NCBI GenBank assembly: GCA_029866205.1
Contig: JARWZT010000016.1
Coordinates: 62,001 to 126,000, forward strand
DNA: 64,000 nt
DNA from: Rhodoferax sp.
Lineage (GTDB): Bacteria; Pseudomonadota; Gammaproteobacteria; Burkholderiales; Burkholderiaceae_C
Direction of reading: 5' to 3'
The notes under the pieces were generated by a model. It was not told where the DNA came from. It worked only from the letters and a program-made list of their open reading frames with translations, and searched no databases. Position numbers and translations under genes: made by a program. The number at the start of each line of letters is the position of its first letter. Within the stretch, counting starts at the first letter, position 1. Below, in pieces: positions 13,252 through 36,178 of this stretch.

Positions 13252-13301
13252 AGCCGAACGACCTCCGCCTCACCAACCGCGCACGATTTTTGGCAACCGC
13301 C

Positions 13302-13880
13302 ATGCGTCCGATCCTTTTGTTGGCGCTGAGCGCACTGACCGGCGCTTTGTTGCTACCGCCTGCAACGGCGGTAGCCGCCGAGGCAGCCCCGGCGGCCTGC
13401 CCGGCGCTGCTGCAAAAAACCTTTAATCGCCTGCAAGACGACGCACCCCAAAACCTCTGCCAGTACGCCGGCAAAGTGCTGCTGGTGGTCAATACCGCCA
13501 GCCACTGCGGTTTTACGCCCCAGTACGAAGGGCTGGAAAAGTTGTACGCCACCTACAGCGCCCAAGGCTTGGTGGTGCTGGGGTTTCCGTCCAACGACTT
13601 TGGCCAACAGGAACCCGGCAAAGGCAAGGACATCGCCGACTTTTGCTTCAACACCTATGGTGTGAAGTTTCCGATGTTTGAGAAGTCCGTCGTTACTGGC
13701 AAAAAGGCCAATCCGCTGTTTCTGGAGCTGGCCAAGGCGGGCGGCGGATCGCCGCGCTGGAACTTCTACAAGTACCTGGTTGGACGTGATGGCAAGCTGA
13801 TCGACAGCTACTCCAGCATGACCTCACCCGACGGCAGCGCCATCGTCTCTGACGTCAAGAAAGCGCTGGCGCAACGCTAA
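13302..13880 (+). CDS. Glutathione peroxidase family protein, exported
   Basis: A 192-residue peroxidase with a signal peptide (MRPILLLALSALTGALLLPPATAVAA) followed by the mature domain. The peroxidatic Cys is in NTASHCGFTPQYEGL, and the GFPSNDFGQQEP and WNFYKYLV segments supply the Gln and Trp of the catalytic tetrad. It reduces hydroperoxides, probably using thioredoxin-like reductants as most bacterial members do; the signal peptide places it in the periplasm, less common than the cytoplasmic form. The ATG at 13302 gives the cleanest signal peptide; a TTG four codons earlier is possible. Confidence 0.88.
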   Translation: MRPILLLALSALTGALLLPPATAVAAEAAPAACPALLQKTFNRLQDDAPQNLCQYAGKVLLVVNTASHCGFTPQYEGLEKLYATYSAQGLVVLGFPSNDFGQQEPGKGKDIADFCFNTYGVKFPMFEKSVVTGKKANPLFLELAKAGGGSPRWNFYKYLVGRDGKLIDSYSSMTSPDGSAIVSDVKKALAQR

Positions 13881-14506: not shown

Positions 14507-14689
14507 AAATCAGTGCCCCATACAAGGGGCCAAAGTTAAGGTGAAAACCGAGGTGGTGCCGCCACCCGCCAAGAGGCGGCAAAATCAGGCGTGGCAAAGA
14601 ATGCCGCTGCCGGATACTGCCACAGGCCCGCTGGCCCCGCCCTTTGGCGGGAATTGGAATCACCCTTGCTTCATTGACCGAGACACCCC

Positions 14690-15154
14690 ATGCAAGACCT
14701 TGCCCCCACCGACGACCCGACCCCAGCCGCGCCATCGCCATTGGTCAGCGCCCTTGGCTATGGTGGCTTGCTGCCCTTTGGCCTGTTGGCTTTGGCCGTC
14801 TTTTGGCCCGGGGAGAGCGGACCGGCTTTTTACGGCTTTGCGCTGCTGGCCTATGGCGCCACGATCGCCAGTTTTTTAGGCGCGATTCACTGGGGTCTGG
14901 CCATGCGCAGCGGCACGCCGCAGCCGCTCGCCTACCTGTGGGGTGTGGCACCCAGTCTGGTTGCGTGGACGGCCCTGCTGCAGCCCACGCCGTGGGGCTT
15001 GCTGCTGCTGACGGGCTTGCTCTTGCTGTGCTACGGGGTGGACCGGCGCCTTTACCGGCACCACCAGTTGCAGGGCTGGCTGCCCATGCGCGCGCGCCTG
15101 ACCACCGTGGCCTGCGCCAGCTGCCTGGCTGCGGCCTGGGGGCTGCTGCGATGA
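14690..15154 (+). CDS. DUF3429 family membrane protein
   Basis: A 154-residue inner-membrane protein with about four to five hydrophobic helices after a Pro-rich N-terminus. GYGGLLPF and the FLGAIHWG segment are typical of DUF3429. Biochemical role unknown. Its stop overlaps the ATG of the following cupin gene, indicating translational coupling. Confidence 0.8.
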   Translation: MQDLAPTDDPTPAAPSPLVSALGYGGLLPFGLLALAVFWPGESGPAFYGFALLAYGATIASFLGAIHWGLAMRSGTPQPLAYLWGVAPSLVAWTALLQPTPWGLLLLTGLLLLCYGVDRRLYRHHQLQGWLPMRARLTTVACASCLAAAWGLLR

Positions 15155-15819
15155 ACACCCTGCAACTGCATGCCGACGAAACCCAGCGCTGCGTGGTCGA
15201 CAGCGGGCAACTCGCTTGGCTGGAATCACCGTCGCCGTTGGTGCAGCGGCGCATGCTGGCCCGCGACGGGGGCGAAGTGGCACGGGCCACCAGCATCGTG
15301 CGCTACGCCCCCGGCGCGCGCTTTGAGGCCCATCTGCACGCGCTGGGCGAAGAAATATTGGTGCTGGAGGGCACGTTCAGCGATGAGTCGGGCGATTACG
15401 GACCCGGCAGCTACCTCAAGAATCCGCCGGGCTCCAGCCACGCGCCTTTTTCAGAAGATGGCTGCACCCTGTTCGTCAAGCTACGTCACCTGCAAGCGCA
15501 GGACAGCGAGCGCGTGGTCGTGGACACCCGGCACGCGCGCTGGCGCCAGGGCATGGTGCAGGGTTTGACGGTGCTGCCGCTCTCCGAGTTTGGTACCACG
15601 CACACCGCCTTGGTGCGCTGGGCGCCGGGCACGTTTTTCAACCCGCACCGCCATTACGGGGGCGAAGAGATTTTTGTGGTCGAGGGCGTGTTTGAGGACG
15701 AACACGGTCGCTACCCGCAAGGCTGCTGGATCCGCAGCCCGCACCTGAGCCAGCACCAGCCCTTTAGCCGCGAAGGCTGTCTGATTCTGGTCAAGACAGG
15801 GCATTTGCTGGACGCCTGA
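15151..15819 (+). CDS. Double-cupin protein (ChrR-like cupin fold)
   Basis: A 222-residue protein with two similar cupin halves, each carrying a HxH...E metal pattern: FEAHLHALGEEILVLEG and FNPHRHYGGEEIFVVEG. The halves resemble the C-terminal cupin of ChrR-type anti-sigma factors, but the N-terminal zinc-binding anti-sigma domain is missing, so a sensor or enzyme role is more likely than anti-sigma activity. ATG at 15151 overlaps the stop of the DUF3429 gene. Confidence 0.75.
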   Translation: MNTLQLHADETQRCVVDSGQLAWLESPSPLVQRRMLARDGGEVARATSIVRYAPGARFEAHLHALGEEILVLEGTFSDESGDYGPGSYLKNPPGSSHAPFSEDGCTLFVKLRHLQAQDSERVVVDTRHARWRQGMVQGLTVLPLSEFGTTHTALVRWAPGTFFNPHRHYGGEEIFVVEGVFEDEHGRYPQGCWIRSPHLSQHQPFSREGCLILVKTGHLLDA

Positions 15820-25484: not shown

Positions 25485-25985
25485 TCAGCCGCCTTGGGCC
25501 CGGATTTTTTTCAGGAGCGCGGTAGTGGAGTAGCCCGACACAAAGGGCAGCGCCAGCGCGTGACCACCCCAAGATTCGACCAGCGCGGTTTCAGGCAGAC
25601 GCGCCATGTCGTAGTCCCCGCCCTTGACCAAAATATCAGGGCGTATTTCAGCAATCAGCGCCTCGGGCGTGTCTTCGTCAAACCAGGTCACCAGGCTAAC
25701 GGCCTGTTGGCCGGCCATGACCACGGCGCGGTCATCCTGCGCATTGAGCGGCCGATCGTCACCCTTGCCCAGGCGGCGCACCGACGCGTCGGTGTTCAGT
25801 GCCACGATCAGGCTGGCACCCAGTGCCCGCGCTTGCGCCAGATACAGCACGTGGCCACGGTGCAATACGTCAAACACCCCATTGGTAAACACCCAGGGAC
25901 GCGGCAGCTTTTCGAGAGCGGCTGCCAGGTCGGAACGTGGGCAAATCTTGTCCAGCAAATCGGGGGCTGGATACGTGGCGCTCAT
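25485..25985 (-). CDS. rfaE2: D-glycero-beta-D-manno-heptose 1-phosphate adenylyltransferase
   Basis: A 166-residue nucleotidyltransferase with the HxGH-type motif NGVFDVLHRGHVLYL and KGGDYD, making ADP-heptose for the LPS core. It is the single-domain form (HldC/RfaE2), not the kinase fusion of E. coli. waaF, which uses ADP-heptose, is also in this window. It overlaps the upstream ferritin-like gene by 4 bp, and its stop abuts that of the convergent glutamate-synthase-like gene. Confidence 0.93.
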   Translation of the reverse strand: MSATYPAPDLLDKICPRSDLAAALEKLPRPWVFTNGVFDVLHRGHVLYLAQARALGASLIVALNTDASVRRLGKGDDRPLNAQDDRAVVMAGQQAVSLVTWFDEDTPEALIAEIRPDILVKGGDYDMARLPETALVESWGGHALALPFVSGYSTTALLKKIRAQGG

Positions 25986-26851
25986 GCCATGCCGGCCGGG
26001 GCGGGCGGGGCTACCGCGCCAGCCAGATCGCGCGCAAGCTCTTTGCGGTATTTGTTGAGTTCTTGCACCGTGGCAAAACTGCGCTCAAGCAGCAGACTCA
26101 TGTTGTGCAAAATCCGCTCCACCACCTTGGTCTCCCAGACATCGTCAAACTTGATTTGCTGGTCGAGCCAGTGCTCCAGCCACTGCGGATTGGGCAGGCG
26201 GCTTTGAATCGTATCGTTAGGAAACAAAGCCTTGCTGACGTGCAGATTGGTAGGGTGCAGGGCCTGTGCGGTGCGCCGGGCGCTGGCCATCAACACGCCC
26301 ACTTTGGCAAATGCGCTTTTGGCCTCGATTCCGACGTTTTGAATCGCGCGCTTCATGTACTTGAGGTAGGCGCCACCGTGGCGCGCTTCGTCCTGGCTCA
26401 GGCGGGTATAAATCGCCTTGATGACGGGTTCGGTGTGCCATTCGCTAGCGCGGCGGTACCAGTGGTTGAGGCGGATTTCGCCGCAAAAGTGCAGCATCAG
26501 GGTCTCGAGCGCGGGCGCAGGGTCAAACTCAAAGCGGACGTTGTGCAGCTCGGCTTCGGTGGGCACCAGGTCGGGCCGGAAGCGGCGCAAGTATTCCATC
26601 AGCACCAGTGCATGCTTTTGCTCTTCAAAAAACCAGATCGACATAAAGGCCGAAAAGTCGCTGTCGCCCTGGTTGTCGCGCAAGAACATCTCTGTGGCCG
26701 GCAGCGCAGACCACTCGGTAATCGCGTTCATCTTGATCGTGGTGGCCTGTTCGTCGGTGAGCGCGCTGGCGTCAAAACTGTCCCAGGGAATGTCGCGCTC
26801 CATGTCCCAACGCACGGCTTCCAGCTGACGAAAAAGTTCGGGGTAAAGCAT
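25982..26851 (-). CDS. Ferritin-like di-iron protein
   Basis: A 289-residue helical protein carrying the complete di-iron carboxylate fingerprint: a first Glu around TEWSALPATEMF, EEQKHA (ExxH), GEIRLNHWY, and DEARHG (ExxH). This [E..ExxH]x2 pattern is that of acyl-ACP desaturases, RNR R2 and related oxygenases. I do not know its substrate. It is translationally coupled to rfaE2 and lies head to head with the lipid-modification operon (166-bp shared upstream region), so an oxidative step on lipids or LPS is a guess worth testing. Confidence 0.75.
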   Translation of the reverse strand: MLYPELFRQLEAVRWDMERDIPWDSFDASALTDEQATTIKMNAITEWSALPATEMFLRDNQGDSDFSAFMSIWFFEEQKHALVLMEYLRRFRPDLVPTEAELHNVRFEFDPAPALETLMLHFCGEIRLNHWYRRASEWHTEPVIKAIYTRLSQDEARHGGAYLKYMKRAIQNVGIEAKSAFAKVGVLMASARRTAQALHPTNLHVSKALFPNDTIQSRLPNPQWLEHWLDQQIKFDDVWETKVVERILHNMSLLLERSFATVQELNKYRKELARDLAGAVAPPAPAGMA

Positions 26852-27017
26852 GTCAATCTTTCAAAAGTGTTGCGATTTTAGGCCGCACCCATGACAACTT
26901 TCATGGTGGGGGCTTGTGATTGCCTGTCAACACGGTGCCGTTAAAACCGCAAACTTCATTTAAATACTACCCAGTCACAAAATTACCGTATAGTTACAAG
27001 CCTATGGTTATCGTCTT

Positions 27018-28316
27018 ATGAAAATCGCAATCATCGGGTCCGGCATCGCCGGTCTGGCCGCGGCGCATCGCCTGAAAGGCCATGCCGCGCTCACCTTGTT
27101 TGAAGCGGGCAGCTACTTTGGCGGCCACACCCACACCGTTGACATTACGCTGGACACGCCCGATGGACCCCGGAGCCACGGCGTTGACACCGGATTTTTG
27201 GTGTTCAACGAGCGCACCTATCCGCAGCTTATTGCCTTGTTTGCCGAGCTGGAGGTGCAGACCGCACCCTCGGATATGTCTTTTTCTGTGCAGGTGCCCG
27301 CCAGCAGCGGTCAGAAGCGCCTGGAGTGGAGCGGCACTTCGCTCAGTTCGGTTTTCAGCCAGCGCAGCAACCTGCTGAATCCCCGTTTTTGGCGCATGCT
27401 GCGCGACGTGGTGCGCTTTAACCGCCTGGCCACCGACATCGCGCTGCGCAACGCCGAAGGGGAGCTGATGCAACCGCTGAGCCGCTTTTTGCAGGCCCAC
27501 CAGTTCTCGTCTGAATTCACGGATTGGTATTTCTTGCCCATGCTGGGCTGCATCTGGAGCTGCCCAACCGCGCAGATGCTGGAGTTTCCGGTGGCCACGA
27601 TGATCCGCTTTTGCCACAACCACGGACTGATACAGATCAGCAACCGACCGCAGTGGCACACGGTGGCCGGTGGTGCGCGCCACTATGTGGAGAAAATTGT
27701 GGCGGGCATCGCCGACAAACGCTTGAACTCCCCGGTACAGGCGATCCACCGCGATGCACAAGGCGTCAGCATCACCAGCGCGGGTCAGACCGAGCGCTTT
27801 GACAAAGTCATCATTGCCACCCACAGCGACCAGGCGCTGGCCCTTTTGGCGGACCCGTCGGCGCAGGAACGCGCAACGCTGGGGGCCATTGGTTACCAGG
27901 AAAACCACGCTGTGCTGCACACCGATGCCTCGGTCTTGCCCCAGCACAAGCGGGCCTGGGCCGCCTGGAATTACGAGCGTGCACCGCAGGCTGCGGCACC
28001 TGAGGGTGCTGGCGAAAGCCAGCGGGTGTGCCTGCACTATCTGCTCAATCTGCTGCAGCCGCTGCCGTTTGCGCAGGCCGTGGTGGTCTCGCTCAACCCC
28101 CTGAACCCGATTGACCCACAGCATGTGCACGGCAGTTTTGACTACGCGCACCCGGTGTTTGACCTGGCCGCCATCCGCGCGCAGGCCGATGTGCCCGCGC
28201 TGCAGGGCCAGCAGCACAGCTACTTCTGTGGCGCCTGGACTGGCTATGGTTTTCATGAAGATGGCCTGAAATCAGGTCTGGACGTTGCGGCGCGACTGCG
28301 TCCGTTGTTGGCCTGA
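27018..28316 (+). CDS. FAD-dependent oxidoreductase (amine-oxidase fold), lipid cluster
   Basis: A 432-residue flavoprotein with an N-terminal dinucleotide fold (IAIIGSGIAGLAAAHRL, then FEAGSYFGGHT) and an amine-oxidase/desaturase-like body; YFCGAWTGYGFHEDGLKSG near the end is the second FAD-binding segment. In many proteobacteria this family sits next to DUF1365 and cyclopropane-fatty-acid-synthase-like genes, as here, and is thought to act on unsaturated or methylated acyl chains. It is first in an eight-gene run. A TATAGT at 26989 could be its -10 box. No good ribosome site is visible before the ATG. Confidence 0.85.
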   Translation: MKIAIIGSGIAGLAAAHRLKGHAALTLFEAGSYFGGHTHTVDITLDTPDGPRSHGVDTGFLVFNERTYPQLIALFAELEVQTAPSDMSFSVQVPASSGQKRLEWSGTSLSSVFSQRSNLLNPRFWRMLRDVVRFNRLATDIALRNAEGELMQPLSRFLQAHQFSSEFTDWYFLPMLGCIWSCPTAQMLEFPVATMIRFCHNHGLIQISNRPQWHTVAGGARHYVEKIVAGIADKRLNSPVQAIHRDAQGVSITSAGQTERFDKVIIATHSDQALALLADPSAQERATLGAIGYQENHAVLHTDASVLPQHKRAWAAWNYERAPQAAAPEGAGESQRVCLHYLLNLLQPLPFAQAVVVSLNPLNPIDPQHVHGSFDYAHPVFDLAAIRAQADVPALQGQQHSYFCGAWTGYGFHEDGLKSGLDVAARLRPLLA

Positions 28317-29113
28317 TGCACAACGCCCCCGCAGTACCCAGCACGCCGGCCAAGGCCTTGATCGGCTTTGGCCAGGTGCGTCACACGCGGCTCAAACCGG
28401 CACGGCACGCCTTTGCCTACCGCACCTACTTTCTGATGCTGCCGATGCGCAGTCTGCAACACGCCGACGCCAGCGCCACGCCGCTGGCCCGCAACCGATT
28501 TGGCCTGGTGAGCTTTTACGACCAGGACCATGGCGACGGACGCAGCCCAGAAGCCGGCGGTGCGCTGGCCTGGCTGGACGAGCTGCTGGCCCTCGAAGGC
28601 ATTGCAGACGCCGATGGCGAGGTCTGGCTGCACTGCTACCCGCGCGTGCTGGGATTTACTTTCAAGCCCGTGAGTTTTTGGTACTGCCACCGCGCCGATG
28701 GCAGCCTGCGGACCGTGGTGGTGGAAGTCAATAACACCTTTGGCCAGCGCCACTGCTACGTGCTCGACCCCGCAGGCTATGGCACCGAGCTGCAGGCGCA
28801 AAAGGTGTTTCATGTCTCGCCGTTTTGCCCGGTCGAGGGCCACTATCGCTTTCGCTTTATGGTGGACTCCGCGCGGGCCCGCACGGTGGCACGCATTGAC
28901 TACGACGATGCGCTGGGGCCGCTGTTGCAGACCAGCGTGAGTGGAAGCCTGCAGCCCATTACCGCGCAATTGCTGCGCCGCGCAGTGCTGGGCTACCCGC
29001 TGATGACGCTGGCGGTAGTCTGGCGTATCCACTGGCAGGCGCTGCGGCTTTTTATCAAGCGCGTCCGGTTTTTCCGTTTGCCCGCACCGCCGCCGAGCGC
29101 TGTGAGCCGCTAG
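28316..29113 (+). CDS. DUF1365 family protein
   Basis: A 265-residue DUF1365 protein. Typical segments are GQVRHTRLKPARHAFAYR, YPRVLGFTFKPVSFWYCH, VVVEVNNTFGQRH and KVFHVSPF. The conserved His, Arg and aromatic residues suggest an enzyme, but no reaction is established. ATG overlaps the preceding stop by 1 bp. Always or nearly always found with CFA-synthase-like genes, so a role in modified fatty-acid synthesis is inferred. Confidence 0.88.
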   Translation: MHNAPAVPSTPAKALIGFGQVRHTRLKPARHAFAYRTYFLMLPMRSLQHADASATPLARNRFGLVSFYDQDHGDGRSPEAGGALAWLDELLALEGIADADGEVWLHCYPRVLGFTFKPVSFWYCHRADGSLRTVVVEVNNTFGQRHCYVLDPAGYGTELQAQKVFHVSPFCPVEGHYRFRFMVDSARARTVARIDYDDALGPLLQTSVSGSLQPITAQLLRRAVLGYPLMTLAVVWRIHWQALRLFIKRVRFFRLPAPPPSAVSR

Positions 29114-29160
29114 ACACCACTTTCATAGCCCCCACTTTTTGATCTTTGTTGCTCGCGCCC

Positions 29161-30402
29161 ATGAACCGCTCCACCACTTCAAACCGCACCACCCACCCCA
29201 GCGCGACAGCCGCCATTCCGGCTTCAGCGCGTACTGTGCTCCAGCTGCTGCAAAAGCTACGCCATGGCAGCCTGACGCTGCATTTTCCTGATGGCCAAAT
29301 GCAGCGTTTTGGGGGCGAGGCTCTGCCGCACGCCACGCTGCATCTGAACAACTGGAATGCGTTTTCTGCGGCGCTCAAGTCGGGCGACATTGGCTTTGCC
29401 GAGAGCTTTATCGACGGCGACTGGACTACGCCCGACCTCACCGCGCTGCTGCGGGTACTGATAAAAAACCGGGCCGAAGTGGAGCAGGTCATTTTTGGCA
29501 GCTGGTGGGGCCAGCTGGCGTACCGCGTCAAGCATTGGCTCAACCGCAATACCCGCGCCAATAGCAAAAAAAACATCCACGCCCATTACGACCTGGGCAA
29601 CGCTTTTTATACCCGCTGGCTGGACCCCAGCATGAATTACTCGTCAGCGCTGTTTGCAGGCAATCTGCAGCAAAGCCTGCAACAGGCCCAGACCGCCAAA
29701 GTGCGCAGGGTGCTGGAACAGGTCCGCACCCGGCCCGGCGACCGGGTGTTGGAAATTGGCTGCGGCTGGGGTGCCCTGGCTGAAATGGCCACCGCGTCTT
29801 TTGGCGCGCACCTGACCGGTGTGACTCTGAGCACCGAGCAACTCGCCTTTGCCCAGGAACGCATGCAGCGTCTGGGCATGGTCAGCCGCGCAGACCTGCG
29901 CCTGCAGGACTACCGCGACATTGACGATGCGCCCTTTGATGCGATTTGCTCGGTGGAGATGATTGAGGCGGTGGGCAAAGACTACTGGCCCACGTACTTT
30001 GCCAGCGTGGCCAAGTTGCTCAAACCCGGCGGCCGGGCCTGCATCCAGAGCATCGTGATCGACGATGCGCTTTTTGCGCGCTACGTCAACTCCACCGATT
30101 TCATACAGCAGTACATTTTCCCGGGCGGTTGCCTGCCCAGCCCCAGTGCCTTTCGCGCGCAGGCGGCGGCCGTGGGCTTGCAGGTGGAACAGGAACACGC
30201 GTTTGGGCTGGACTATGCCGAAACGCTCAAGCGCTGGCGCGGCGCATTTTTGGCCCAGCGATCCGAGGTGCTGGCACTGGGTTTTGACACGCGGTTTATG
30301 CACATTTGGGAGTTTTACCTTTGCTACTGTGAGGCTGCCTTTATGGAAAAAAATATCGACGTCGTGCAGTACACCTTGCGCAAGCCGGGTCCGGCGGCCT
30401 GA
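29161..30402 (+). CDS. Cyclopropane-fatty-acyl-phospholipid synthase family methyltransferase
   Basis: A 413-residue SAM-dependent enzyme acting on double bonds of membrane phospholipid acyl chains. Motif I is VLEIGCGWGALAE (about residue 195), preceded by HYDLGNAFYTRWLDPSMNYS, which is the lipid-binding signature; SVEMIEAVGKDYWP, YIFPGGCLPS and a conserved acidic C-terminal half follow. Within the UfaM/CfaS superfamily the product may be a cyclopropane ring or a methylated chain; sequence alone does not decide. The ATG at 29161 is preferred over the TTG at 29146. Confidence 0.9.
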   Translation: MNRSTTSNRTTHPSATAAIPASARTVLQLLQKLRHGSLTLHFPDGQMQRFGGEALPHATLHLNNWNAFSAALKSGDIGFAESFIDGDWTTPDLTALLRVLIKNRAEVEQVIFGSWWGQLAYRVKHWLNRNTRANSKKNIHAHYDLGNAFYTRWLDPSMNYSSALFAGNLQQSLQQAQTAKVRRVLEQVRTRPGDRVLEIGCGWGALAEMATASFGAHLTGVTLSTEQLAFAQERMQRLGMVSRADLRLQDYRDIDDAPFDAICSVEMIEAVGKDYWPTYFASVAKLLKPGGRACIQSIVIDDALFARYVNSTDFIQQYIFPGGCLPSPSAFRAQAAAVGLQVEQEHAFGLDYAETLKRWRGAFLAQRSEVLALGFDTRFMHIWEFYLCYCEAAFMEKNIDVVQYTLRKPGPAA

Positions 30403-30407
30403 CGCCC

Positions 30408-30989
30408 ATGGCATCGGTATCCGCGCCTTGGCCTCGCCGCGCAGTGCTGCGCATGGCGCTGGCGGGTGCCGTGGCCCTGCCCCTCAGAGCGCAGGCTGAG
30501 CCACCGACGGTCGAAGTTCCGCCCGAAGTAGCACAGGCTTTACCGCAAGGCCAGCCCCACGGCGCGGGGCGCCTGCGCTACCTGCTGTGGGATGTATTCG
30601 ACGCCACGTTGTGGACCTTGCAGGGCTTTCGCGGCGCACAGTACTTTGACCATGCATTTGCACTGGAGCTGCGCTACCTGCGCAAGCTCTCAGGCGCCTC
30701 GCTGGTAGAAAGCTCAGTGCAAGAGATGCGACGGGTGGGCAGCCTGGACCCCAACAAGGAGGCGGCTTGGACGGCCGCGATGCAGACCGCCTTTGTCGAT
30801 GTGCAAGCGGGTGACCGCATTACCGGGGTTCACCGCCCGGGCGCTGGGACGCGGTTCTTTTTCAATGGCCGCCTGCGCGGCACCGTCGACGATGCGGCGT
30901 TCGCCCGCGCCTTTTTTGGCATTTGGCTGGGTGCCACCACCAGCGAGCCGAGCCTGCGCAGCGCTTTGTTGGCTGGCAGCGCGCTTTAG
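30408..30989 (+). CDS. Chalcone-isomerase-like exported protein
   Basis: A 193-residue protein with a Tat-like signal (WPRRAVLRMALAGAVALPLRAQA) and a chalcone-isomerase-fold core (LRYLLWDVFDATLWTL, FALELRYLRKLSG, FFFNGRLRGTVDDAAFARAFFGIWLG). Bacterial members bind fatty acids or act as periplasmic carriers; isomerase activity on flavonoids is unlikely. It starts 5 bp after the methyltransferase stop, within the same operon. Confidence 0.8.
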   Translation: MASVSAPWPRRAVLRMALAGAVALPLRAQAEPPTVEVPPEVAQALPQGQPHGAGRLRYLLWDVFDATLWTLQGFRGAQYFDHAFALELRYLRKLSGASLVESSVQEMRRVGSLDPNKEAAWTAAMQTAFVDVQAGDRITGVHRPGAGTRFFFNGRLRGTVDDAAFARAFFGIWLGATTSEPSLRSALLAGSAL

Positions 30990-31012
30990 GCCCGACTTTG
31001 GTGACTCCACCC

Positions 31013-32320
31013 ATGCCCACTCCGGCCATCGCTACCGTAGCCGGTACGGACCCTGGCATCCGCTGGTCCCAGGGCTTGCGCTATGGGCTGCTGGGCTTGC
31101 CGCTGGCTTTTGCCGCACTGCCTTTGTATGTGCTGCTGCCCAATTTCTATGCGCGCAACTTTGGGGTCCCGCTGGCGGGACTGGGCCTCTTGTTGCTCAG
31201 TGCACGCCTGTTCGACGCCGTCATTGATCCATTGCTGGGCCGCTGGGCCGATGCCTTGTTTGCGCGTTCGCTCAGCGCGGTGCTGGCCGTTGGGGCTTTG
31301 GCGGCACTGCTGTTGGGCGCGAGCTTTTGCGCCCTGTTTTTTCCGCCACGCACGACGCTGTCGTTTTTGTGGGTCTGGGCTGGCGTCTGCCTGGTGTTGT
31401 GTTACCTGGCCTTCAGCACCTTGACCATCTTGCACCAATCCTGGGGCGCCTTGTTGGGTGGCGATGCGCTTCAGCGCAGCCGCATCGTGGCCTACAGAGA
31501 AGGTCTGGGCCTGGTCGGCGTGGTGCTGGCCTCACTCAGTCCGGTGTTGTTTGGCATGCCGTTCACACTGGCACTGTTGTGGCTGGGACTGCTGCTGGGC
31601 TGTGCGGCCTGGCGCCTGTCACCCCGGCCCGTGCTGGAGATCCGGGCAGCGGTGCCGGCGTCAATACCCTGGGCTATGGGTGCCGAGCTGCTTGCCCCCT
31701 GGAAAACACCCGCGTTTCGCGCGCTGTTGGCGGTGTTCATGGTCAATGGCATTGCGACGGCCCTGCCGGCCACGCTGATCCTCTTTTTTGTTCAGGATCG
31801 TTTGCAAGCGTCCCCGCAAAGTGAGGCCTGGTTCTTGGGTGTCTATTTCATCGCCGCCGCCGCCGCACTGGCGCCTTGGTTGCGGGCAGTCAAACGCTGG
31901 GGGCTCGAACGGGCTTGGCTCGCGGGCATGGTCTTGGCGGTTGCCGTGTTTGCCTTTGCGGCCCAATTGGGGCCCGGGGACACGGGCGCCTTCTTGGTGG
32001 TCTGCGCACTCTCGGGCTTGGCCATGGCGGCCGATTTGGCATTGCCCGGCGCGTTGCTGGCCGGTGTCATTGCCCGCCAGAGCGGGGCCAGCAGCGCCAG
32101 CGGCCGCTTTTTTGGCTGGTGGAACCTGGCCACCAAACTCAATCTGGCCTTGGCCGCGGGCTTGGCCTTGCCGTTATTGGCAGCCTTTGGCTACGCACCC
32201 GGCAGCCGTACACCTGAGGGCCTGCAAGCACTCACCTGGGCCTATTGCCTTGTGCCCTGCGCCCTGAAGCTGCTGGCCGCAGCCCTGCTTTATTTCCTCC
32301 TTCTCCGAAAGTCACCATGA
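31013..32320 (+). CDS. MFS transporter, GPH (MelB/MFSD2A-like) family
   Basis: A 435-residue transporter with about 12 helices. The early segment SARLFDAVIDPLLGRWAD is the GPH-family signature shared by sugar-cation symporters and the animal lysolipid flippase MFSD2A. Given that all neighbours handle lipids, lipid movement across the inner membrane is a reasonable hypothesis. ATG at 31013 lies 23 bp after the preceding stop; the end overlaps the DUF3833 gene by 4 bp. Confidence 0.82.
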   Translation: MPTPAIATVAGTDPGIRWSQGLRYGLLGLPLAFAALPLYVLLPNFYARNFGVPLAGLGLLLLSARLFDAVIDPLLGRWADALFARSLSAVLAVGALAALLLGASFCALFFPPRTTLSFLWVWAGVCLVLCYLAFSTLTILHQSWGALLGGDALQRSRIVAYREGLGLVGVVLASLSPVLFGMPFTLALLWLGLLLGCAAWRLSPRPVLEIRAAVPASIPWAMGAELLAPWKTPAFRALLAVFMVNGIATALPATLILFFVQDRLQASPQSEAWFLGVYFIAAAAALAPWLRAVKRWGLERAWLAGMVLAVAVFAFAAQLGPGDTGAFLVVCALSGLAMAADLALPGALLAGVIARQSGASSASGRFFGWWNLATKLNLALAAGLALPLLAAFGYAPGSRTPEGLQALTWAYCLVPCALKLLAAALLYFLLLRKSP

Positions 32321-32865
32321 AACGACGCTTGATTCTTGGCGGTGCCGCCAGCGCCCTGGGCCTGTCTGCTTTGGGCAGCCTGAGCGGCTGTGCCAGCCAA
32401 AACCTGGACAATTACCGCAACGAAAAACCAGTGCTGGATCTGCAGCAATATTTCAATGGCACGCTGGATGCCTACGGCGTTTTCACCGACCGTTCGGGCA
32501 CCGTGGTCAAGCGCTTTACGGTAGTCATGCGGTGCAGCTGGAAGGACGGCCAGGGCGTGCTTGATGAAGACTTCCTGTACTCCGACGGCAGCCAACAAAA
32601 ACGCATTTGGCGCCTCAGTGCGCTAGGCGATGGGCGCTATACCGGACGGGCCGACGATGTGGTGGGCGTGGCCCAGGGCCAAACGCAGGGCAACGCCTTT
32701 CACTGGAACTACACCTTGGCACTGCCGGTGGACGGCACGGTGTACGAGGTGCAGTTTGACGACTGGATGTACCAGATCAATGACCGGGTCATGTTGAACA
32801 AGGCCAGCATGCGCAAGTTCGGCATTTTCCTGGGTGAGGTCACCTTGAGCTTTAGCAAGCGCTAG
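32317..32865 (+). CDS. DUF3833 family lipoprotein
   Basis: A 182-residue lipoprotein: signal peptide with lipobox LSGC (Cys at about residue 28), then a DUF3833 body (LQQYFNGTLDAYGVFTDRSG, WKDGQGVLDEDFLYSDG, FDDWMYQINDRVMLNKASM). The beta-rich body suggests a lipocalin-like lipid binder, but this is inference. Its Asp-free +2 residue (Ala) fits outer-membrane sorting. ATG overlaps the MFS stop. Confidence 0.85.
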   Translation: MKRRLILGGAASALGLSALGSLSGCASQNLDNYRNEKPVLDLQQYFNGTLDAYGVFTDRSGTVVKRFTVVMRCSWKDGQGVLDEDFLYSDGSQQKRIWRLSALGDGRYTGRADDVVGVAQGQTQGNAFHWNYTLALPVDGTVYEVQFDDWMYQINDRVMLNKASMRKFGIFLGEVTLSFSKR

Positions 32866-32868
32866 CCC

Positions 32869-33648
32869 ATGGTCTGGTTAAAAACACTGAACCCCCGGCA
32901 AACCCACTGGCAGGGCAAGTCGGTCTGGGTGATTGGCGCAAGCAGCGGCATCGGCCGGGCCACGGCATCCGCACTGCATGCCCAAGGAGCGCGCGTGACC
33001 GTTTCGGCCCGCAATTTGGCAGCGCTCGAGGCTTTCGTGCAGGAGCATCCGGGCAGCGTCGCGCTGGCCTTGGACTGTACCGACCGATCTGCAATGCATG
33101 CCTGCGTCAACACAATGCAAGCCACGGCATTGCCCGACTGCGTGATGTACTGCGCCGGCCACTACCAGGCCATGCGCGCCAGCGCCATGGACGTCGACGA
33201 CATGCTGCGCCACCTCGAGGTGAACTACCAAGGTGCGCTGTATATGCTGGAAGCCTTGCTTCCCGCCTTGCGCCAACGCGGCAGTGGTCACTTGGCTTTT
33301 GTCAGCAGCGTGGCCGGTTACCGGGGCTTGCCCAACAGTCTGGCCTATGGCCCAACCAAGGCCGCGTTGACCAACCTGGCTGAAACCCTGCACCTGGACT
33401 TGCAGGCCGACGGCATTGGCATCTCGGTGATCAACCCAGGCTTTGTGGAGACGCCGCTGACCGCCGGCAACACCTTCACCATGCCCGGCCTGATCACGCC
33501 AAAGCAAGCGGCCCAAGCCATCTTGCAAGGCTGGGCGCACGGTGCGTTTGAGATCCACTTTCCCAAGCGATTTACCGCTTGGATGAAGGCGCTGCGGATC
33601 ATGCCCAACCGCTGGTACTTTTTTCTGGTGCGAAAGACCACTTTATGA
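32869..33648 (+). CDS. Short-chain dehydrogenase/reductase
   Basis: A 259-residue classical SDR: cofactor loop GASSGIGRATA, NAG-equivalent CAGHY, catalytic Ser in FVSSVAGY and YxxxK in AYGPTKAAL. The C-terminus is basic and hydrophobic (ITPKQAAQAILQG then KRFTAWMKALRIMPNRWYFFLV), as in SDRs that act on membrane lipids. It follows the DUF3833 gene by 3 bp and overlaps the next gene by 4 bp. Confidence 0.88.
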   Translation: MVWLKTLNPRQTHWQGKSVWVIGASSGIGRATASALHAQGARVTVSARNLAALEAFVQEHPGSVALALDCTDRSAMHACVNTMQATALPDCVMYCAGHYQAMRASAMDVDDMLRHLEVNYQGALYMLEALLPALRQRGSGHLAFVSSVAGYRGLPNSLAYGPTKAALTNLAETLHLDLQADGIGISVINPGFVETPLTAGNTFTMPGLITPKQAAQAILQGWAHGAFEIHFPKRFTAWMKALRIMPNRWYFFLVRKTTL

Positions 33649-34094
33649 ACCCCCTGTCTGCTTCGCCCTCCACCAGCATCGCGCCTTTGGTCGCCTATTT
33701 CGAAAATTTGGCGCCGGACAATCTGGCGCAATTGCACCAGCACTACACGGCGCAAGCCCGTTTCAAAGACCCCTTCAACGACGTCACGGGACTGGCAGAA
33801 ATCAGGCGCATCTTTGAACACATGTTTGTCGCCCTGGTACGGCCGCGCTTTGTGGTGACACAGCAAATCTGCCAGGGCAGGCAATGCTTTCTGACCTGGG
33901 AATTTCGCTTTGGATTCCGCAACTTCCACAAGGGGAAAGAGCAGGTGATTTTGGGGGCCTCCCACCTTGTGCTGGACGACCAAGGTCTGGTCGTGTTGCA
34001 CCGGGACTACTGGGATGCGGCCGAAGAGCTCTATGAAAAGCTGCCCGGGGTGGGCAGCCTGATGCGCTGGCTCAAGCGCCGGGCCAACAGCTGA
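33645..34094 (+). CDS. SnoaL/NTF2-like protein
   Basis: A 149-residue NTF2-fold protein (YTAQARFKDPFNDVTGLAEIRRIFEHMF, then a curved sheet ending HRDYWDAAEELYEKLPGVG). Such proteins with the DPFNDVxG motif recur in CFA-type lipid clusters. It may be a small hydrolase, isomerase or carrier of the pathway product. Last gene of the eight-gene run. Confidence 0.82.
   Translation: MNPLSASPSTSIAPLVAYFENLAPDNLAQLHQHYTAQARFKDPFNDVTGLAEIRRIFEHMFVALVRPRFVVTQQICQGRQCFLTWEFRFGFRNFHKGKEQVILGASHLVLDDQGLVVLHRDYWDAAEELYEKLPGVGSLMRWLKRRANS

Positions 34095-34118: not shown

Positions 34119-34128
<10 letters not shown>
34108..34128. terminator. Hairpin between convergent lipid operon and GST gene
   Basis: CACCGCC-CCGCTTA-GGCGGTG is a perfect 7-bp inverted repeat; the GST stop codon lies in its loop. 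It could terminate both converging transcripts, though no T-run follows. Confidence 0.4.

Positions 34129-36178
<2,050 letters not shown>

Follow-up and report, generated by a model that had tools for sequence, protein, structure and literature searches.

The Ufa pathway yields methylated furan fatty acids (FuFA) on phospholipids, and these give cells protection against singlet oxygen generated by light (PMC7380195). As described by Lemke et al. (2020), vaccenoyl chains are methylated by UfaM, the diene is produced by UfaD, which uses flavin adenine dinucleotide (FAD), and the furan ring is formed with O2 by UfaO, a DUF1365 protein. Together, UfaM, UfaD and UfaO are sufficient in vivo for the furan fatty acid, and the genes RPA2569-2571 of Rhodopseudomonas palustris suffice for 9M5-FuFA in Rhodobacter sphaeroides (PMC7380195). 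This fatty acid vanishes fast after exposure to singlet oxygen, and cells unable to make furan fatty acid are killed by singlet oxygen (PMC7380195). In Pseudomonas, ufaM is light-induced 25- to 33-fold, an effect assigned to LitR-type regulators (PMC9758184). Here we describe an eight-gene cluster with genes of these types in a 64,000-nucleotide stretch of a Rhodoferax sp. assembly (GCA_029866205.1, contig JARWZT010000016.1, positions 62,001 to 126,000 of the forward strand), hereafter the window.

Pfam profile searches of the window found all eight genes of the original prediction, in the families it had named, co-directional on the forward strand between 27018 and 34094 (Table 1). Coding was supported for 8/8 genes by third-codon-position GC. 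The junctions, in operon order from ufaD to the SnoaL-like gene, measure -1, +47, +5, +23, -4, +3 and -4 bp; the tight packing originally described, with overlaps of 1-4 bp and short gaps, stands, except that the gaps of 47 and 23 bp exceed that range. The eight genes form a real and conserved operon, one of a type already known. Its product had previously been left unassigned. This no longer holds, because an FAD oxidoreductase, a DUF1365 protein and a methyltransferase resembling cyclopropane fatty acid (CFA) synthase make up the published UfaD-UfaO-UfaM furan pathway (PMC7380195), and genes of all three types lie adjacent in the window. We therefore read the cluster as a furan fatty acid operon of a Comamonadaceae bacterium, with a probability of about 0.83. 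The modified acyl chain proposed originally could have been a furan or a cyclopropane, among others; the match to UfaD-UfaO-UfaM supports the former, while the active-site signature of UfaM makes the latter unlikely.

In such an operon, UfaM would methylate, with S-adenosylmethionine (SAM) as the donor, a cis-vaccenoyl chain that is already part of a phospholipid, UfaD would use FAD to introduce a second double bond, and UfaO would insert an oxygen atom from O2 and close the methylfuran ring. The furan chain may then scavenge or report singlet oxygen in the membrane. Work on R. sphaeroides and R. palustris has shown these three enzymatic steps, which would carry over to the window by homology and gene order.

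The window UfaD-like protein has a GxGxxG motif at residue 7 and a full-length match in the PDB to the amine oxidase LkcE (E = 3e-36). It is 38-49% identical to the products of ufaD-like genes in Azospirillum, Qingshengfaniella and Paracoccus, where ufaD-ufaO sets occur near RpoE-ChrR-type pairs; in Salinivibrio, MerR-phrB adjoins the ufa set. We predict that it is the desaturase of the methylated acyl chain. For the UfaO-like protein, a search of the PDB by fold gave no convincing match despite a good predicted model, with a predicted local distance difference test score (pLDDT) of 90. By the role described for UfaO (PMC7380195), the window DUF1365 protein is the predicted O2-dependent furan-forming enzyme.

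The window UfaM is 46% identical to a Paracoccus UfaM-like protein and 36% to E. coli CFA synthase; its identity to two canonical synthases, from E. coli and from contig C2 of the same assembly, is 34-36%. The catalytic and bicarbonate-site residues of the E. coli enzyme, which we take to be C139, E239, H266, I268 and Y317, were sought in the window protein. The canonical set was not found there: the five positions read SEQIY against CEHIY in E. coli, with Cys139 replaced by Ser and His266 by Gln. SEQIY occurs in 63/67 related loci, the remaining four having GEQIY or AEQIY, and is also seen in Azoarcus, Paracoccus, Salinivibrio and one of two Cupriavidus copies. The second CMAS protein of the assembly, on contig C2, has CEHIY and is of the canonical CFA synthase type. 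Judged by these residues, the window methyltransferase is no canonical cyclopropane synthase, and replacement of the Cys and His may turn ring closure into methylation with a shift of the double bond. The SEQIY signature sets UfaM-type methylases apart from the many proteins that carry a cyclopropane synthase annotation.

When GTDB genomes were scanned for relatives of DUF1365, 80 named loci emerged, almost all from Burkholderiales, of which 66 were long enough for gene order to be judged; DUF1365 is present in every locus by construction, because the loci were picked by it. The full eight-gene set occurs in the same order in 50/66 loci. An identical order was found on plasmid pAZKH of Azoarcus sp. 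KH32C (Rhodocyclales), and such agreement is far beyond chance; the Azoarcus operon differs in having a divergent MerR/LitR-type regulator on its promoter side, where the window has none. Among the 66 loci, ufaM is retained in 64, the short-chain dehydrogenase/reductase (SDR) in 63, DUF3833 in 62, the chalcone isomerase-like (CHI) gene in 57 and the SnoaL-like gene in 56. The neighbourhood survey of DUF1365 with the GPH transporter, which the original prediction had proposed, placed the two together in 60. One locus, L070, consists of ufaD-ufaO-ufaM alone, without accessory genes. The closest named locus (L015) belongs to a Comamonadaceae metagenome bin, with 86% identity in UfaO, and ufaD was found in 240/301 genomes of the GTDB family Burkholderiaceae. 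Many Comamonadaceae copies are flanked by a ferritin-like gene and by a glutathione S-transferase (GST) gene with purB; the ferritin-like gene, divergent from ufaD in the window, stands at the operon in 39/80 loci. A different arrangement was noted on a plasmid of Cupriavidus sp. USMAHM13 (L010:9689-12785). Near its ufaD-ufaO, a DUF1295 gene lies between two CFA-like genes, one with the UfaM signature and the other with CEHFY, and a lipocalin family gene adjoins the CHI-like gene.

The five remaining genes of the operon were considered as accessory to this core. The CHI-like protein has a signal-peptide-like N-terminal segment, MASVSAPWPRRAVLRMALAGAVALPLRAQA-E, and is probably exported; a sequence search of the PDB gave no match for it. 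The transporter scored 57.7 bits against TIGR00792 (gph, GPH sugar:cation symporter), below the curated cut-off of 231.35. In the DUF3833 protein, a lipobox-like LSGC lies near residue 25, within MKRRLILGGAASALGLSALGSLSGCAS; read by eye, with no predictor, this gives the signal peptide with lipobox cysteine of a lipoprotein. Its predicted model (pLDDT 89) matched, in Foldseek, the lipocalin-like barrels BFA1, CpeS, Ycf58 and OssO (E about 1e-5 to 1e-3), with a TM-score of about 0.6 to BFA1 and CpeS. The protein is thus predicted to be a lipocalin-like beta barrel lipoprotein. The lipobox and the predicted barrel make binding of a hydrophobic ligand plausible, and the predicted fold is compatible with lipid handling. 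The SDR has the motifs GASSGIG at residue 23 and YGPTK at residue 160. When RSP1089, RSP1088 and RSP1087 were each deleted in R. sphaeroides, the total fatty acid profile stayed the same, lipid location being outside the assay (PMC7380195). As these genes are counterparts of three of the five, formation of the furan ring probably does not require the accessory genes.

What they do instead is a matter for more tentative proposals. The SDR, SnoaL-like and lipocalin-like proteins could conceivably detoxify or recycle electrophiles arising from the furan ring once it has been oxidised by singlet oxygen. The quick loss of 9M5-FuFA after singlet oxygen exposure fits such a role, as do the standing of the SDR as the most constant accessory gene and its presence in the Salinivibrio and Pseudomonas clusters; the SnoaL-like proteins, however, have diverse functions, and the substrates are putative. 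The original prediction had favoured a full pathway in which the MFS_2 transporter, the periplasmic CHI-like protein and the DUF3833 lipoprotein move the modified chain across the envelope, and such export would raise the share of furan lipid in the outer membrane. In its favour, MFSD2A, a lysophospholipid carrier of eukaryotes, is a member of the MFS_2 superfamily, the SDR, DUF3833, GPH and CHI genes stay with the core in most loci, and DUF3833 is a predicted lipocalin-like lipoprotein. We nevertheless find export unlikely, given the unaltered fatty acid profile of the three R. sphaeroides mutants, the occurrence of the core without accessory genes in some loci (such as L070), and a transporter substrate and lipid location that are both putative. 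It is very improbable that the operon yields a cyclopropane or a plain methyl-branched fatty acid rather than a furan: the methyltransferase does belong to the CMAS superfamily, but the canonical Cys139 and His266 are substituted, the assembly has a canonical CFA synthase on another contig, and the adjacent DUF1365 gene, of UfaO type, is needed only for the furan step.

Several points weigh against the assignment as a furan fatty acid operon. The window UfaO is just 33-40% identical to the Paracoccus and Azospirillum proxies through which, together with shared architecture, orthology to the R. sphaeroides and R. palustris enzymes was judged. The furan product in this organism is itself predicted from homology and gene order, and the accessory genes are presumed to act on the furan lipid or its reactive oxidation products within the envelope, by handling, placing or recycling them. 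The usual regulation is also not supported here, since no ChrR was found in the genome and LitR occurs just on a suspect contig. Even so, the furan assignment turns an 'unknown lipid' into a concrete prediction, that of furan fatty acids in freshwater Comamonadaceae, and it pinpoints five accessory genes conserved with the pathway, whose role becomes directly testable.

A LitR-type regulator was found in 37/80 relatives, typically divergent from ufaD; in relatives with the ferritin-like gene, it sits between that gene and ufaD. No LitR lies beside ufaD in the window or in its nearest relatives, and a search of the genome for ChrR found none. Control by RpoE-ChrR (ECF11) or LitR, which is frequent for such sets without being required, was therefore not seen at the window locus. 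This agrees with the earlier observation that no RpoE-ChrR, LitR or photolyase gene adjoins the operon; photolyases are encoded on other contigs of the assembly, whose only LitR is on the suspect contig C10. Two cupin proteins were considered as ChrR and rejected. The double-cupin protein of the window has two ChrR-type cupin domains, and, like a cupin on contig C21 at about 43 kb, it fell below the ChrR cut-off or did not match; the upstream neighbour of its gene encodes a glutathione peroxidase, not a sigma factor. An ECF11 promoter (TGATCC/CGTA) upstream of ufaD was sought by eye, with no match at the expected spacing. A tandem 19-bp direct repeat lies immediately before ufaD and is a candidate operator or promoter, where TATAGT could serve as the -10 box. 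The genome contains no other copy of it even when 3 mismatches are allowed, and its units, single or paired, precede ufaD in most of the closest LitR-less relatives (L015, L017-L021, L028).

In relatives, the survey further revealed, at this locus, a candidate RNA family with strong support. The element, about 105 nt long, lies upstream of ufaD in 32 surveyed loci, and not in the window. Its structure comprises an outer stem, a small hairpin and a third stem, whose CU-rich loop is complementary to Shine-Dalgarno sequences. Two-sided, pair-keeping changes were seen in 19/21 pairs, and 94.5% of alignment cells pair, compared with 80.3% in shuffles and 38-53% with slid partners. Single-sequence folds gave the three expected elements in 3/4 cases; in L068, the third stem was not the minimum-energy choice. 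A search of Rfam 15, at weak thresholds too, gave no match. A conserved upstream peptide was rejected as an explanation, as the frame is open yet the compensatory stem changes alter amino acids. In a model search, 217/301 genomes of the GTDB family had one copy each, and in an order-wide sample of 200, matches were confined to that family, though strict filters can lose weak ones. The window's own genome has no copy apart from that on contig C10. The RNA is no mere leader of ufaD, since copies persist without that gene: by hand count, 15/20 listed ufaD-negative genomes are RNA-positive, and some copies adjoin GST-purB with ufaD not nearby.

The RNA usually lies behind a sigmaE-like GGAACTT promoter. 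GGAAC[TC] occurs within 150 bp upstream in 62/66 copies (4.9 expected from mononucleotide shuffles), accompanied in 36/66 by TCnnA at a spacing of 14-18 bp (0.3 expected); these counts overstate the evidence, because the motif was first spotted by eye in the same sequences and the 66 copies are kin, with a few duplicates. The two motifs together have the form of a sigmaE promoter. Within the GTDB family Burkholderiaceae, the element is likely to represent a novel family of envelope-stress small RNAs, lying next to the furan operon. Its CU-rich loop resembles the CCUCCUCCC loops found in small RNAs of Alphaproteobacteria, a likeness that serves as a lead only.

A second ufa set, ufaD-ufaO-ufaM-CHI, is cut by the end of contig C10 (C10:1-20000, locus L008), which also carries LitR, the RNA element and a further ferritin-like gene. 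Each of the 12 other genomes with a ferritin-like gene of this kind has one copy. The C10 copy is 80% identical, as against 86-96% for copies from the same genus and 74-79% for other families, and the GC content of C10 is 64-68%, while most sampled contigs have about 57-64%, C13 standing apart at 48%. From copy number, identity and GC, the set was rejected as a true paralogue, and C10 is probably misbinned; this is a judgement and not proof.

Table 1. Features of the predicted furan operon region and copies of the RNA element. Positions are those of the window unless a locus is named.
Feature	Position	Strand	Length	Remarks
ufaD-like FAD-dependent oxidoreductase	27018..28316	+	432 aa	Pfam Amino_oxidase/NAD_binding_8
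ufaO-like DUF1365 protein	28316..29113	+	265 aa	DUF1365, E 4e-80
ufaM-like SAM-dependent methyltransferase, CFA/CMAS superfamily	29161..30402	+	413 aa	CMAS, E 9e-84
Chalcone isomerase-like protein (CHI)	30408..30989	+	193 aa	Chalcone_3, E 5e-14
MFS_2 (GPH-superfamily) transporter	31013..32320	+	435 aa	MFS_2, E 1e-48
DUF3833 lipoprotein	32317..32865	+	182 aa	DUF3833, E 8e-70
Short-chain dehydrogenase/reductase (SDR)	32869..33648	+	259 aa	adh_short, E 1e-37
SnoaL_2/NTF2-like protein	33645..34094	+	149 aa	SnoaL_2, E 7e-14
Tandem 19-bp direct repeat	26964..26997	+		ATACTACCCAGTCAC-AAAA-TTACCGTATAGTTAC (repeat TTACCnnnnAGTnAC)
Ferritin-like gene	25982-26851	-		Divergent, upstream of ufaD; weak AurF/FA_desaturase_2 matches
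Glutathione S-transferase (GST) gene	34119-34736			Convergent, downstream of operon
purB	34796-36178			Downstream of GST; name given by eye from sequence
Glutathione peroxidase gene	13290-13880			Upstream neighbour of double-cupin gene
Double-cupin protein	14644-15819	+		Rejected as ChrR
RNA element, L008	L008:4318-4422	-
RNA element, L023	L023:7521-7628
RNA element, L068	L068:7388-7498
RNA element, L121	L121:1501-1610
RNA element, further copies				About 30 other loci

The operon was compared with the described ufa systems. The LitR/PplR-controlled phrB-SDR-FAD-ufaM clusters of Pseudomonas have an SDR, an FAD oxidoreductase and UfaM in common with the window, but their gene order is unlike it and they include a photolyase and LitR (PMC9758184). 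In R. sphaeroides, RSP1091-1087 encode UfaD, UfaO, a 402-aa protein (RSP1089), a listed lipoprotein (RSP1088) and an SDR (RSP1087), an order that parallels the window; RSP1089 may be taken as the transporter because of its length and place in the gene order. That operon has five genes, and therefore contains no chalcone isomerase-like or SnoaL-like gene. Its UfaM is encoded apart (RSP2144), whereas the window ufaM lies inside the operon. R. palustris has a contiguous ufaM-ufaO-ufaD core (RPA2569-2571), as in the window, and a separate FufM for the second methyl group (PMC7380195).

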